DNA from: Arabidopsis thaliana | Taxonomy: Eukaryota > Streptophyta > Magnoliopsida > Brassicales > Brassicaceae | Direction: 5' to 3' | NCBI RefSeq assembly: GCF_000001735.4 | Contig: NC_003075.7 | Location: forward strand, 18,291,001 to 18,355,000 | DNA length: 64,000 bases | Part shown: one piece after another, positions 33,768-43,923 of the stretch | How positions within the stretch are numbered: position 1 is the stretch's first letter | Layout of the letters: each line of letters starts with the position of its first letter | Made by a program: the position numbers and the translations under genes | The notes under the pieces: generated by a model | Databases searched by the model: none | Told to the model about the DNA's origin: nothing | The model's input: only the letters and a program-made list of their open reading frames with translations

Positions 33768-33825
33768 ATTCCCCCTTTCATCTTCTCTACTTCCCACACT
33801 TTTCTCTCTCACAAACTCTTGAGAA

Positions 33826-36800
33826 ATGAAGACTTTTTCAAGCTTCTTTCTCTCTGTAACAACTCTCTTCTTCTTCTCCTTCTTTTCTCTTTCATTTCAA
33901 GCTTCACCATCTCAGTCTTTATACAGAGAAATCCATCAGCTTATAAGCTTCAAAGACGTTCTTCCTGACAAGAATCTTCTCCCAGACTGGTCTTCCAACA
34001 AAAACCCGTGTACTTTCGATGGCGTTACTTGCAGAGACGACAAAGTTACTTCGATTGATCTCAGCTCCAAGCCTCTCAACGTCGGATTCAGTGCCGTGTC
34101 CTCGTCTCTCCTGTCTCTCACCGGATTAGAGTCTCTGTTTCTCTCAAACTCACACATCAATGGCTCCGTTTCTGGCTTCAAGTGCTCTGCTTCTTTAACC
34201 AGCTTGGATCTATCTAGAAACTCTCTTTCGGGTCCTGTAACGACTCTAACAAGCCTTGGTTCTTGCTCCGGTCTGAAGTTTCTTAACGTCTCTTCCAATA
34301 CACTTGATTTTCCCGGGAAAGTTTCAGGTGGGTTGAAGCTAAACAGCTTGGAAGTTCTGGATCTTTCTGCGAATTCAATCTCCGGTGCTAACGTCGTTGG
34401 TTGGGTTCTCTCCGATGGGTGTGGAGAGTTGAAACATTTAGCGATTAGCGGAAACAAAATCAGTGGAGACGTCGATGTTTCTCGCTGCGTGAATCTCGAG
34501 TTTCTCGATGTTTCCTCCAACAATTTCTCCACTGGGATTCCTTTCCTCGGAGATTGCTCTGCTCTGCAACATCTTGACATCTCCGGGAACAAATTATCCG
34601 GCGATTTCTCCCGTGCTATCTCTACTTGCACAGAGCTCAAGTTGTTGAACATCTCTAGTAACCAATTCGTCGGACCAATCCCTCCGCTACCGCTTAAAAG
34701 TCTCCAATACCTCTCTCTGGCCGAGAACAAATTCACCGGCGAGATCCCTGACTTTCTCTCCGGCGCGTGTGATACACTCACTGGTCTCGATCTCTCTGGA
34801 AATCATTTCTACGGTGCGGTTCCTCCATTCTTCGGTTCATGTTCTCTTCTCGAATCACTCGCGTTGTCGAGTAACAACTTCTCTGGCGAGTTACCGATGG
34901 ATACGTTGTTGAAGATGAGAGGACTCAAAGTACTTGATCTGTCTTTCAACGAGTTTTCCGGCGAATTACCGGAATCTCTGACGAATCTATCCGCTTCGTT
35001 GCTAACGTTAGATCTCAGCTCCAACAATTTCTCCGGTCCGATTCTCCCAAATCTCTGCCAGAACCCTAAAAACACTCTGCAGGAGCTTTACCTTCAGAAC
35101 AATGGCTTCACCGGGAAGATTCCACCGACTTTAAGCAACTGTTCTGAGCTGGTTTCGCTTCACTTGAGCTTCAATTACCTCTCCGGGACAATCCCTTCGA
35201 GCTTAGGCTCTCTATCGAAGCTTCGAGATCTGAAACTATGGCTGAATATGTTAGAAGGAGAGATCCCTCAGGAGCTCATGTATGTCAAGACCTTAGAGAC
35301 TCTGATCCTCGACTTCAACGATTTAACCGGTGAAATCCCTTCCGGTTTAAGTAACTGTACCAATCTTAACTGGATTTCTCTGTCGAATAACCGGTTAACC
35401 GGTGAGATTCCGAAATGGATTGGCCGGTTAGAGAATCTCGCTATCCTCAAGCTAAGCAACAATTCATTCTCCGGGAACATTCCGGCTGAGCTCGGCGACT
35501 GCAGAAGCTTAATCTGGCTTGATCTCAACACCAATCTCTTCAATGGAACGATTCCGGCGGCGATGTTTAAACAATCCGGGAAAATCGCTGCCAATTTCAT
35601 CGCCGGTAAGAGGTACGTTTATATCAAAAACGATGGGATGAAGAAAGAGTGTCATGGAGCTGGTAATTTACTTGAGTTTCAAGGAATCAGATCCGAACAA
35701 TTAAACCGGCTTTCAACGAGGAACCCTTGTAATATCACTAGCAGAGTCTATGGAGGTCACACTTCGCCGACGTTTGATAACAATGGTTCGATGATGTTTC
35801 TGGACATGTCTTACAACATGTTGTCTGGATACATACCGAAGGAGATTGGTTCGATGCCTTATCTGTTTATTCTCAATTTGGGTCATAACGATATCTCTGG
35901 TTCGATTCCTGATGAGGTAGGTGATCTAAGAGGTTTAAACATTCTTGATCTTTCAAGCAATAAGCTCGATGGGAGGATTCCTCAGGCTATGTCAGCTCTT
36001 ACTATGCTTACGGAAATCGATTTGTCGAATAATAATTTGTCTGGTCCGATTCCTGAGATGGGTCAGTTTGAGACTTTTCCACCGGCTAAGTTCTTGAACA
36101 ATCCTGGTCTCTGTGGTTATCCTCTTCCGCGGTGTGATCCTTCAAATGCAGACGGTTATGCTCATCATCAGAGATCTCATGGAAGGAGACCAGCGTCCCT
36201 TGCTGGTAGTGTGGCGATGGGATTGTTGTTCTCTTTTGTGTGTATATTTGGGCTGATCCTTGTTGGTAGAGAGATGAGGAAGAGACGGAGAAAGAAAGAG
36301 GCGGAGTTGGAGATGTATGCGGAAGGACATGGAAACTCTGGCGATAGAACTGCTAACAACACCAATTGGAAGCTGACTGGTGTGAAAGAAGCCTTGAGTA
36401 TCAATCTTGCTGCTTTCGAGAAGCCATTGCGGAAGCTCACGTTTGCGGATCTTCTTCAGGCTACCAATGGTTTCCATAATGATAGTCTGATTGGTTCTGG
36501 TGGGTTTGGAGATGTTTACAAAGCGATTTTGAAAGATGGAAGCGCGGTGGCTATCAAGAAACTGATTCATGTTAGCGGTCAAGGTGATAGAGAGTTCATG
36601 GCGGAGATGGAAACCATTGGGAAGATCAAACATCGAAATCTTGTGCCTCTTCTTGGTTATTGCAAAGTTGGAGACGAGCGGCTTCTTGTGTATGAGTTTA
36701 TGAAGTATGGAAGTTTAGAAGATGTTTTGCACGACCCCAAGAAAGCTGGGGTGAAACTAAACTGGTCCACACGGCGGAAGATTGCGATAGGATCAGCTAG

Positions 36801-37416
36801 AGGGCTTGCTTTCCTTCACCACAACTGCAGTCCGCATATCATCCACAGAGACATGAAATCCAGTAATGTGTTGCTTGATGAGAATTTGGAAGCTCGGGTT
36901 TCAGATTTTGGCATGGCGAGGCTGATGAGTGCGATGGATACGCATTTAAGCGTCAGTACATTAGCTGGTACACCGGGTTACGTTCCTCCAGAGTATTACC
37001 AAAGTTTCAGGTGTTCAACAAAAGGAGACGTTTATAGTTACGGTGTGGTCTTACTCGAGCTACTCACGGGTAAACGGCCAACGGATTCACCGGATTTTGG
37101 AGATAACAACCTTGTTGGATGGGTGAAACAGCACGCAAAACTGCGGATTAGCGATGTGTTTGACCCCGAGCTTATGAAGGAAGATCCAGCATTAGAGATC
37201 GAACTTTTACAACATTTAAAAGTTGCGGTTGCGTGTTTGGATGATCGGGCTTGGAGACGACCGACAATGGTACAAGTCATGGCCATGTTTAAGGAGATAC
37301 AAGCCGGGTCAGGGATAGATTCACAGTCAACGATCAGATCAATAGAGGATGGAGGGTTCAGTACAATAGAGATGGTTGATATGAGTATAAAAGAAGTTCC
37401 TGAAGGAAAATTATGA
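33826..37416 (+). CDS. BRI1: Brassinosteroid receptor kinase BRI1
   Basis: A single intron-free ORF of 1196 residues. In order: signal peptide (1-23), a first Cys pair in [10 protein letters not shown], about 24-25 leucine-rich repeats, the roughly 70-residue island domain (about 587-656, [21 protein letters not shown] onward) that with the neighbouring repeats binds brassinolide, a second Cys pair (LCGYPLPRC), one membrane helix (about 793-814), a basic juxtamembrane segment, and a Ser/Thr kinase with glycine loop GSGGFG, Lys911, HRD Asp1009 and DFG Asp1027. It sits in the plasma membrane, pairs with BAK1/SERK co-receptors and is held back by BKI1 until hormone binds. All catalytic residues are intact. 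The leader is CT-rich and has a six-codon uORF. It lies tail to tail with POLARIS. Confidence 0.99.
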
Positions 37417-38188
37417 GAGTTAGAAACAGAGCCAAAGCAGATTCTTTGAACATCAAAATCATCTAAGGGTCAGTCCGATTTTCCTTGGGTCTATTTTTTT
37501 TGTATTTTCTACTATATGCTAAGTGTATGTATCTATGTTATTTATACATAAGACGGATGTTTTTTTTTTCGGGCTCGGTCGAATTGGGGGTGGTGGAGAA
37601 TAGAACTAAGTAATAACTTTGTTAAGAATATGTAAATATACAGTTTTTTGGGGAGGGATTTGTAATGTTTTCGTTTTTAGTTCTATGGAAATTTCTACGT
37701 TGCTAACAAATTAAATTTATAATGAATCATGAAGAAACAAAGAGCCAATGTGTATTAAATTTCGACTGATCATGTTCATGTAAATGCACGTGACCTATTA
37801 ATTCATTATTGTCGGAATTAATTTGGGGAATTCACACTGCACGGGAATGGGAAAGTGAGAATAGATGAGACTTAAATTTGTTTTTATGGATGTTATATTT
37901 ACATGACCAATGTGGTCCCTTTTGAACTATGCTGAGTTAAACGTTTTTTTTTTTGCTATATACTTATTACTGATGAAATTGAACCGTTGGACTATATTTA
38001 TATCCATCTACGTTATTTTTTCCATTACTATTGATTTTGTTATTGGCCCAAGTAGAATCAAAAGAATGGTTTTTTGATGTCATAATTTGCAATATAGAAA
38101 TGGGAGGGATATGTATTGCATAATAAGATAAAGATAAACCTTTATCGAGACATAAGATTGTATGTAGATATTGAAAATGATAGGGTGA
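37417..38188. other. Shared 3' space between BRI1 and POLARIS
   Basis: The BRI1 3' untranslated region probably reaches about 37700. The rest is AT-rich and must also hold the 3' end of the oppositely oriented POLARIS transcript. Nothing else is visible. Confidence 0.5.
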
Positions 38189-38299
38189 TCAATGGATTTT
38201 AAAAAGTTTAAACAATTTTGCTACTAATAAATAAGAGATTGATATATAACATGGAGAAATGGACCTTCGCCTGAAATTAAAACAAAGTCTGGGTTTCAT
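38189..38299 (-). CDS. PLS: POLARIS 36-residue peptide
   Basis: A minus-strand ORF of 36 codons plus stop. The peptide begins MKPRLCFNFRRRSIS and ends KLFKLFKIH. It has a basic arginine run (RRR), a short turn with Cys17, and a hydrophobic/basic C-terminal half (LLVAKLFKLFK) that could form an amphipathic helix. There is no signal peptide. POLARIS is known from roots as an auxin-induced, ethylene-repressed peptide needed for normal root growth, vascular pattern and ethylene/auxin crosstalk, acting near the ETR1 receptor. It is below usual gene-calling limits and is covered on the plus strand by a longer chance ORF (38259-38510). Two tiny ORFs overlap its start (see next entry). BRI1 ends 773 bp away, convergent. 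Confidence 0.93.
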   Translation of the reverse strand: MKPRLCFNFRRRSISPCYISISYLLVAKLFKLFKIH

Positions 38300-38329
38300 T
38301 CATGTTTCAGTGAGACACTGCGCCAACAT
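38277..38329 (-). other. Two overlapping micro-ORFs before POLARIS
   Basis: On the minus strand, a 9-codon ORF (38300-38329, MLAQCLTET) ends in TGA that overlaps the ATG of an 8-codon ORF (38277-38303, MNETQTLF) as ATGA. The latter begins 4 nt before the POLARIS ATG and ends inside POLARIS in another frame. I recall that published POLARIS transcripts carry two such small ORFs. Confidence 0.85.
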
Positions 38330-38399
38330 CACCACAACAAGTCTTACACAAGGAACGTGTGCCTCACGTGCTCTTCTCTTTCTCTCTGCAGCTACGTGG

Positions 38400-41300
38400 A
38401 CTGTCTTCGCTCCCCTCGCTCTTCGGATTTCGTGTTCCTTGCTTTCAAATTCTTTCTTCTTTAATCTTTTTGATTATTTATTTTTCTTTTCTCACTACTA
38501 CCCAAACTAAAACACAAATCAAGTGTTTAGACTTTTAATAAAACTTAAAGAAAGGTTTATTTGGGTTTTATATGTTCGCTTTAGTCTCCAATACTAATAT
38601 ATTAAGTGGAACATTATAAATACATGCTTCTTATATACTATATGATCATGGATTTCGAAGAAACATTATAGAAAAAAAAACTTGAAACAAATGCGATACG
38701 GATACGTGCACATACATACCAATACACTATTATTCATCCTAGACAAGACACTGACATAGGCGCGTATAAACAAACGCGCTGAAACTGTGGAAGAAGGAAA
38801 AGAAGAGATGAGTAGCTATCAAGCGGAACACGCGCGACGGTGGTGGGTACGGAGCACGTGGGCCACCGTGCATGCAAGCTGTTCTTGTCGGAAACTTCCC
38901 CTAACAACGTCTCCTTCCGCCGTGGGCCGCCGTCCCTTTCCTGTCTCCGCCGAATTGACCTCTTCCTCTCTTTCCCTCTCTCATCTCTCTCCCACGTGTG
39001 TTTCCTTCTCATCCATACACTTCTCTTAATTAATTTATTATCTTCCTAATAAATATTCTTAATACATTTTGTTTTTTTCATATGCCTTAAGAAATTTTAT
39101 ATATTATTTTGACAACTTGTCAATAATACTATTCGTTACGCGGAATTATTGGGTACGTACGTGGGTTTCATTGCTCTTTGTCTGATATCAAGAAATCAAG
39201 TCACATAAAATTAAATACAGGAATACGCACAATGCAAAAAAAGCCACTATCCATAAAAATTATACTTATACTATAATACAAAAATTCTGAGTTGCAAATG
39301 ACAAAATTAATAGGAACTACAAAAAAAAATTAGTAAAAACATAACACGGTGGTAGAATTTTGTTTCCTATCATAAATTTTGATAAAATTAGGGCGTACTT
39401 GAACACATAAAGGGTTACGATTCAAAGGAATTAAGCAATTTGTACTAAAAATACATAATTACAAAACCATTCTATCATTTTAGGATCTTTTTCTTTCAAT
39501 CAAACCAATAATTCACGTTTAAACGTCGTCATGTATCTGATTATGTACATATAAAATTGCTCTAAATATGTAAATATGGGTCAAGTGCAAGACGGTCCAT
39601 GCATTTAGATATTTTTCTGTAAGGCATATAAGTGGAGGATTGCGATGTGTACGTAAATACATAATCATTAATCAATTTATATATGTATATATACCTAGTT
39701 ATGGGGTTGGAAATCTGAAGTTGAATCAATCTTATCGTAGTTTTATTCATTCTCGAGGCTTCTTTCTCACGTACAAAACTTCCCGCACGGGCTAAAGCTT
39801 GTTTGTCAAATAAATTGTTTAGAAACTGAGGTTTCGACGATGTACGAACTACACAAAGCTACAAACAAAGAAAATAATTAAGAATTTGTTTTGTACGTAA
39901 ACATGTAGACAAACCCATTTCCACGCGTGTGAGCTCTCTGCCATTCATATACAGCTAAGACTTCTGAAAACGACGTTGATTAGTTAAATGTGTCGTCGTG
40001 GAAAAAACTATGTAAATACGTTCTCTATTGACTCAAAGGATAACAATATTTCTGCATATTTTTTGTTTACCTGTGATTTATAATGTTTTGTAAAAATGTA
40101 CGTAACGACTATCAACAAGATATTATTATTTCACATGATAACAAGCGGTCAAAGTTGTTCTTACCGAGTTACTGTCAAATTGCATGCTAGAGCTTATTCT
40201 AATATGTATTGTATATATATTATCATAGTCTTAAATCGAATTATGTCTATGAATAATACTTTCTCTGCATATATATTTTTTTTTGTCAATATATGTTATT
40301 TAGTCTCCATATGTTTGGCTCTCTTTACAACTTACAAAAAAATACCTTAACTAAAATAAAGATATAGTGTTAAACTAATTTAATCAAAGAAATTGTTGGA
40401 TTCATCTCACCTAGGAATCTTCCTTCTTTTCACGACGAAGAGACAAAGAAACAAAAAGCGACGGCTCAGATTTTGGTAATGTATAATGAAGTTTCAAATA
40501 TTATATTCATCTCCTCGCAGCTTCTCCCAGCTTTCTCGTTTTTAATTCCCAGTCTCCTTTCAACAAGTTTTTTTTTCTTTAAAGCCATAATTAATGTTTG
40601 GGCGTCAGGATTACGTTATCTTAACTTTTTCCAATGGTTTGAACTGCTTTAACAGAGCCTTGTAAAATAATTGGAAAATTTGCTTTTGATAATAGCTAAT
40701 TAGCAAATGGAATCAGTTTGTCCATAAATATATATGTAATGTCGTAAATCAGTATATAATAGAAGAAAAAAAATAAGAAATTTGATGATGGCAAATACTT
40801 TGAGTAACAACACAATTGGCTATCGTGTCAATTTTTGAGATAAATTAACTAAATTACATTGATACATAGTATACAGTATTATGAAAATGATTATTTAAGA
40901 CCTTGGATTAAGGTAGCGAACGTGCGGTCCACGAGGGAATCACGTGGGAGTCTCCCTCGGACTCGGCGGAGCAAGCGGGTCACAACTTTTCATGTCCTCG
41001 TAACTTATGATTTCTATTTCTTTAATAGTTTTGTTTTCTTTTCGTAATAAGGTTTCGTAATCTAAGTTGATCAACGTATTACACTATTTAAGGTTTTACA
41101 TTACACTTTTGGGAATCGAGAGAGTCGAGACGCTCACGTGCTTAAACGCGCTTATCCATTTGTCGAATTTCTTGGTTTGTCACGTGATCGCTATATTCGT
41201 GGACTTGGGTCTATCATTAAACCCAATAGAATTTTCCTCGTCTATAGGCTCATTATGGTAATCTGTCTTTATTGAACAAGTGTAAAATTTAAAGAAGCCC

Positions 41301-41936: not shown

Positions 41937-43789
41937 TCACCAGAAGAAGTTGGAGAGAGGAGGGTGCAGGTGAGAGGTGGAGAGAGAGTCGTCGTCGAGA
42001 TGATTAGAAGGAGAGTGAAGGTGTCTTCCTTCGTAAGTAGTGATTACCATTCTTGGGTCATCTGCTAATCTCTCCACTCTCTTCTTCACTCTACACTTGT
42101 CTTGTGTGCATCTGTAATAGCTCCTGCCATTCACATATTATATATATTAGTTAATCTTATATCAAATTTTATGGGAAACAAGTCTTATTTTTGGTTAGAC
42201 TAGTTATAGTTGAATATAGAGTGATATAATATCAAACAGATATTAAGGCAACTAATGGAACTTTATCACAAAGCTCATGATAAAACTTTACAAAATGAGT
42301 ATACAAGTTACCTAAACAAATCATTATTATTTGTAAATGTCAAATGTCAACATGTGAGAAAGAATCTTACAGAAACCCAACCCCATTATGTCTCACATTC
42401 TCACATAACACTCAAATATTTCTACATGAAATTACTTTTTTCCTTTCTTAACGGTTATATTCTTTTCCTATTTTTCTATAGCTACTAATCCCCAGAGGGA
42501 CAAAAGTTTTTGTTATAACAGAACTGATACTTAATTACATATATACAGAGAAACGTACCAGAAAGATTCTACTAATAATTTTCATTGCCCTTAGAAAAAT
42601 CGTAAATGAATGATTAATCATTACATGGCTCATAATTCACTACAAATTTTCATCATATTAGTTTACGTTAAAAACTTGGAAAAAAAAAAACTGATGATTG
42701 ATCAAGACCGTAAAATTCTTATGAGAAGTCATCATTAACCTTCAAGGAATCATGAGAGGCAAAAAAGTGGAAGAACTGATATGTAGTCATCTTAATTAAA
42801 GAACGGCTGAGAATTGAAAGACTCGGAACCAATTTCAAATCATAAAATTAAATTAAATTACCTGGGATGTTGGGTGTTTTTGACAACTTTCTGGCCATAC
42901 TTTCTCCATCTATATCCATCATCTAAGACATCAACCTCGCTAAGTGTCTTAAAGCAAAACCGAGGTTCCCTCACTTTTCTTCTTGTCTTAAGCTTCTTCA
43001 TCTTCAGAGAAGAAACTACGCCTAATGACGCTGTGTTATGTTTATCATGACGACTGGGAGTATCATGATGATGATGACGACCATTATCATCATCATTAAT
43101 GCCACCACCATCGCCAACCTCATCATCATTATCATCAACATCAATCTCGCTTCCATGGTTGTTTTTCTGGCTGCTTCCGTATCCCGCTTGACAACTCCAT
43201 GCCCTAAACCACATTAACATATAAACATTAGTTACTTATATATAAGTAGCCGAGTCATGTGTGCATCCTCAAACTAATTGAAAATTCTGTACAATAAAGC
43301 AAAAGTAACTAGTAGGGAAATATACGAGCTTTTGGTTTATATATTTAAATACTTATTTTGAAAATAATGATTAATTTTAGTATTTTCGTAAGTAACTACT
43401 TACCATGGATTTGACAGGGGTCTTTGGGATGAAATACTACCGGTAAGACGATGATGATCGAGATTAAGAAAACCATCATGATCGTCCCTTTGCTTTGATG
43501 AGGACAAAGACGAGATTAGGGTTTCGGGGAGATTGGTCATGAGATTGATGGAATCTTGAGGATGACTTATGAATGAAGACGGGTTATTATGAAGGAAGGA
43601 GTTTAGGGAGTTATGACCAAGAAATGGAGACACAAGAGAAGAAGGAGAAGACGAAGACGACGAAGATGATGAAGATAAGGTGCTGTGACTAGGGAAAGAG
43701 AAGAAGAAACCTAGATGGTTGGTATTAATAGGGTTTATGACGGTTTGTGATTCATCAAACAAGCTTATTCCTTGGTTTATCGCACCCAT
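41937..43789 (-). CDS. WRKY13: WRKY transcription factor 13
   Basis: Three minus-strand exons (43404-43789, 42862-43203, 41937-42123) give 304 residues. The single WRKY domain has WRKYGQK at 228-234 and a C-X4-C-X23-H-X1-H zinc finger (Cys248, Cys253, His277, His279), the group IIc type. The second intron splits the Arg codon after QHP, the conserved WRKY intron position. Upstream are a poly-Ser run, an acidic Asp-rich stretch ([14 protein letters not shown]), His runs and a basic [10 protein letters not shown] likely nuclear signal. WRKY13 is known to bind W-boxes (TTGACC/T), activate NST2 and promote stem lignification, and to influence flowering. The start chosen is MGAINQG; an in-frame ATG 120 nt upstream (43909) is discussed in findings. 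The C-terminus, LSNFFW, is complete. Confidence 0.96.
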
Positions 43790-43923
43790 CTCGCAAAAGC
43801 TTGACGAAGGTGAGATTGTGTGTGTGAGACAGTGAGAGAGAAAGTTTTTGTTTTGCTGGATATTTTGTTTGATTTTGGGTTGAGAGTTGAGACAATCCAA
43901 TCCATCCATGTGAGTGTTTCGAT

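Follow-up and report, generated by a model that had tools for sequence, protein, structure and literature searches.

Three start codons crowded at the 5' end of the Arabidopsis POLARIS gene probably keep translation of the peptide low

The POLARIS (PLS) gene of Arabidopsis thaliana begins with three start codons in 33 bases, those of two upstream mini-ORFs (uORF1 and uORF2) and that of the peptide itself. Our analysis of the DNA and of a scanning model suggests that this cluster probably keeps translation of PLS low. We consider it fairly likely that the arrangement works through inefficient leaky scanning in which two AUGs lying almost side by side also compete for the ribosome; control of this kind is known. 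PLS is a known Arabidopsis root-growth peptide, which modulates ETR1, an ethylene receptor, and exemplifies the functional peptides that intergenic DNA can encode. The founding 2002 report by Casson is said to mention small upstream ORFs. The gene is already well known and its start geometry is somewhat unusual, an uncommon layout of ordinary upstream mini-ORFs for which a regulatory meaning is possible but unproven.

The ORF at 38299-38189 on the minus strand, within the 64,000-nucleotide window of chromosome 4 that was analyzed, is PLS (AT4G39403) and encodes MKPRLCFNFRRRSISPCYISISYLLVAKLFKLFKIH followed by a stop codon. All 36 of 36 residues are identical to those of published PLS (table in PMC9638090); this is the same gene, with no difference in the peptide. 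The product has the 36-residue length and the two cysteines of POLARIS, and a search of the genome at E values up to 10 returned a single match, with no paralogue at that threshold. The identification as POLARIS offered by the first-pass annotation is therefore borne out by the equality of residues and the single genome match. Additionally, the 15-base junction around the clustered ATGs occurs only once in the genome. Exact patterns had no matches among viral contigs, and the exact 20-base pattern matched four prokaryote contigs (two Patescibacteria, Pseudocolwellia and Yanofskybacteria), which we take as chance because the pattern is short and the collection large. The portions of the PLS literature covered here, which do not extend to the founding reports of Casson (2002) and Chilley (2006), contain no text on uORFs or upstream ATGs of PLS.

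Features of the PLS start region and of the convergent neighboring gene (positions in the window)
Feature	Position	Strand	Details
PLS coding sequence	38189..38299	-	36 codons + TGA; start with T at -3 and A at +4 (weak context)
uORF1	38300..38329	-	MLAQCLTET and stop, 9 codons + TGA (38302-38300); G at -3 and T at +4 (moderate context)
uORF2	38277..38303	-	MNETQTLF and stop, 8 codons + TAA (38279-38277); A at -3 and A at +4 (moderate context)
ATGA, uORF1 stop overlapping uORF2 start	38300..38303	-	seen in the sequence
ATG-free stretch before uORF1	38330..38613	-	284 nt; purine-rich towards its 3' part
TATAAAA, TATA-box-like	38566..38572	-	would imply a 5' end near 38540
TATATAA, second TATA-box-like site	38631..38637	-	would imply a 5' end near 38605
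Open frame of LRR receptor kinase	33823..37416	+	Pfam PF20141 (Island) 1e-27, PF00069 1.4e-44

The start positions 38329, 38303 and 38299 and the lengths of 9, 8 and 36 codons first read for the three ORFs all check on the minus strand. The same holds for the ATGA at 38303-38300, where uORF1 and uORF2 overlap, and for the 4 nt by which the uORF2 ATG precedes the PLS ATG. uORF2 extends 23 nt inside PLS in another frame. uORF1 lies in frame with PLS and is parted from it by a TGA alone (MLAQCLTET-stop-MKPRL...), and this TGA abuts the PLS ATG directly (TGA ATG). Since the PLS ATG sits directly 3' of the uORF1 stop, a ribosome ending uORF1 would not need to back up, whereas one ending at the uORF2 stop would have to move 20 nt back to reach it. 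The initial proposal that PLS can be made only by leaky scanning or by backing up after the first stop was thus wrong in detail, as backing up applies only after uORF2, and it overlooked a third route, read-through of the TGA. Both uORFs have the geometry of repressive uORFs, their ATGs lying upstream of the main start and their stops either ahead of the main ORF or within it.

With context classes assigned after PMC3020687 (Fig. 5 legend), the PLS ATG ranks lowest of the three, and both uORF ATGs carry a purine at -3. No ATG occurs in the 284 nt before uORF1, and therefore the cluster probably holds the first three AUGs that a scanning ribosome would meet. This stretch is the probable 5' leader. 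Shuffles of the stretch average 3.4 ATGs, and only 1.3% of 2000 shuffles have none; for a shorter leader beginning at a putative 5' end of 38540 the corresponding figure is 4.5%. Gaps of at least 284 nt between successive ATGs number 22 of 2402 in the window, the gap of the PLS leader included. A PLS transcript of about 500 nt has been reported (PMC7947200, PMC9638090), a length that would fit a transcript beginning near 38540. Folding of the leader RNA revealed no unusual structure, the predicted folds being less stable than those of shuffles (z of +1.14 for 352 nt and +1.25 for 141 nt), and RNA structure was dropped as a guide to start-site choice on these values.

We propose that the PLS mRNA would carry a long ATG-free leader followed by the three-AUG cluster. 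Ribosomes scanning from the cap would encounter the moderate start of uORF1, then the moderate start of uORF2 and, 4 nt further on, the weak PLS AUG. The majority would start on the two tiny ORFs, and PLS would arise mainly from ribosomes that leak past uORF1 and then pick the PLS AUG over the uORF2 AUG, the two being close enough for one scanning ribosome to sample both. The sequence, the frames, the start contexts and the ATG-free stretch are seen directly; from them we infer a transcript with the three AUGs in it, translation of both uORFs and repression of PLS by them. In yeast and HeLa reporters, AUGs that lie out of frame and no more than about 17-20 nt apart compete, which the authors read as ribosomes scanning back and forth (PMC9743702). 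In Arabidopsis, 2,921 translated uORFs of 2-10 aa have been identified, and minimum and tiny uORFs reduce main-ORF output in reporters (PMC10896280). A proPLS::PLS:GFP construct, in which the native leader presumably sits ahead of PLS, is reported to complement the pls mutant in four of five single-copy lines (PMC12744750), which indicates that ribosomes do start at the PLS AUG in the plant.

The proposal was explored with a random-walk scanning model built after PMC9743702, using yeast leakage values and the -3 base only, in which 20,000 simulated ribosomes began 60 nt before uORF1. Read for direction and not for size, as these yeast-based numbers must be, the model places 94.4% of initiations at uORF1, 5.3% at uORF2 and 0.24% at PLS. 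The PLS share rises to 4.4% without the uORF1 ATG, to 3.9% without the uORF2 ATG and to 79.6% without both. A leakier set of values, of our own choice, gives PLS 1.5% in the intact arrangement and 8.2%, 10.1% and 57.5% for the same three removals, and one-way leakage arithmetic with published net leakages gives 0.13%, 1.6%, 6.3% and 79%, respectively. Thus the claim that start choice matters for PLS is plausible, given the weakest context at its ATG and the few model initiations there unless the upstream ATGs are removed. Placing A at -3 of PLS lifts its modeled share merely from 0.24% to 0.44%, such that the weak context would hardly matter. With uORF2 shifted to 31 nt ahead of PLS, the PLS share came to 0.76%, more than with the native spacing, although the control is imperfect because a single nucleotide then separates the two uORFs. 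The model thus gave no sign that PLS gains from the proximity of uORF2, and neither of these two runs speaks for a special role of the geometry.

If the start cluster limits translation, the level of PLS transcript would be a poor guide to the level of peptide, and a construct carrying the native leader could not be equated with one lacking it. Furthermore, the PLS translation-rate term v8 in a published hormone-network model (PMC3617403) would gain a basis in the sequence.

The most serious competitor, a strong rival although we judge it the less probable account, is that the upstream ATGs are incidental. On this view they came about neutrally, the gene being short and variable and lying in AT-rich intergenic DNA; they perhaps dampen translation slightly but are neither selected nor regulatory. 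For comparison we took the window's 507 ORFs that begin with ATG and span 25-60 codons, on either strand and with nested starts included, and 13066 such ORFs from 60 shuffles. Close upstream ATGs are frequent near small ORFs, at least one lying within 31 nt in 256 of 507 window ORFs (5604 of 13066 shuffled) and at least two in 79 (1238 shuffled), so that crowded starts are ordinary. An overlapping out-of-frame upstream ORF accompanies 135 of the 507 (3125 of 13066 shuffled). The shortness of uORF2 needs no special cause either, since, when PLS was recoded 20,000 times at random with synonymous codons, this frame stopped within 8 codons in 54% of cases. The lack of a paralogue and of special RNA structure, together with the variation among PLS-like peptides of the Brassicaceae, which range from 22 to 36 aa and are reported from A. 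lyrata, Camelina, Eutrema and Raphanus (PMC12744750), also agree with an incidental origin. In contrast, the ATG-free stretch before the cluster, seen in so few shuffles, indicates that ATGs in this region do not simply follow the background. The exact geometry also argues against an incidental origin: an ATG at -4 is found in 12 of 507 window ORFs (229 of 13066 shuffled) and an abutting upstream stop in 7 (95 shuffled), and the two together occur in one window ORF, PLS itself, and in 6 shuffled ones. The exact PLS start geometry is rare, though the test was chosen post hoc, the geometry having been picked after it was seen.

At the opposite end lies the idea that the cluster is a selected translational valve, with PLS output responding to initiation stringency or to reinitiation factors such as eIF3h. 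Its elements would be the uORF1 TGA abutting the PLS ATG and the uORF2 AUG 4 nt away, forming a layer of translational control atop the known auxin/ethylene control of transcription; we hold this idea to be unlikely. The PLS transcript is described as low in abundance and under auxin and ethylene control (PMC12744750).

Comparison with known systems places leaky scanning with close-AUG competition among described kinds of control. The tiny uORFs found to be translated in Arabidopsis (Wu et al. 2023, via PMC10896280) likewise encode 2-10 aa ahead of a main ORF and include overlapping ones, whereas at PLS the main ORF is itself short, at 36 codons, and uORF1 adjoins it directly in the same frame. 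Similarly, the tiny/small uORF pair of plant AdoMetDC genes (PMC7503886) has an interlocked stop and start, through a 1-nt overlap there and the 4-nt ATGA at PLS. The second AdoMetDC uORF is a conserved, polyamine-responsive element of 156 bp (about 50 codons). In contrast, PLS uORF2 has 8 codons (27 bp including the stop) and overlaps the main ORF, and PLS is not of the AdoMetDC type. The p69/p206 pair of turnip yellow mosaic virus offers a parallel for the uORF2 and PLS starts, as two AUGs a few nucleotides apart in different frames are read by plant ribosomes; the spacing is 7 nt in the virus, where the two AUGs are reported to be coupled, and 4 nt at PLS (PMC5382211). Both viral products are large proteins, whereas the first at PLS is an 8-codon ORF.

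A further alternative is that uORF1 feeds PLS and does not compete with it, in that a ribosome ending uORF1 either restarts at the abutting PLS ATG or misreads the TGA to produce a 46-residue form. The shared frame of uORF1 and PLS, with the TGA as sole separator, and the uncommon abutting stop in the counts given above speak for such coupling or read-through. However, reinitiation in plants varies with how much spacer follows the uORF (PMC3020687, Fig. 2 legend), and here the spacer is zero. Read-through is opposed by the report that synthetic PLS rescues the mutant root both as the full 36 aa and as the N-terminal 22 aa alone (PMC12744750), which means that an N-terminal extension is dispensable for function. 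We consider coupling or read-through very unlikely.

Least probable is that the leader is spliced, or that transcription begins within the cluster in some cells, such that the choice of isoform sets the presence of the three AUGs: a strong-looking 3' splice site (tttgttttaatttcag followed by GC; 38271-38286, minus strand) ends at 38271 inside the PLS ORF and falls at the 99.9th percentile of AG sites, on approximate, untrained weight matrices, but equally good acceptors number 5 in the window against a shuffle mean of about 4.2, and no good donor was found (best scores 1.15 at 38367, 2.15 at 38959 and 2.47 at 38719; GTAAGA at 38347 scored -1.56). Alternative splicing as a means of removing the ATGs was accordingly rejected.

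The surroundings of the gene bear on its earlier description as masked by a longer plus-strand ORF, which holds only in part. Such an ORF exists, an 83-aa frame at 38259-38510 that spans both uORFs and has no Pfam match, but of the 111 nt of PLS it overlaps no more than 41, and PLS already has its annotation. A pair of ORFs of 83 aa or longer lies in 37650-39200, where 500 shuffles gave a mean of 0.124 and at least one in 11.8%; the 83-aa plus-strand ORF likely arose by chance, although this is not proven. The other member of the pair, a 92-aa ORF rich in Arg and Lys, is located at 38734-39012 on the minus strand, upstream of the PLS promoter region. PLS is convergent to, and downstream of, the LRR receptor kinase frame, which we take to be BRI1, the brassinosteroid receptor, as its LRRs, island domain and kinase fit. 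Reading by eye also found a WRKYGQK-type domain near 42860-42930, within 42000-43900 on the minus strand, in a gene that is presumably WRKY13.
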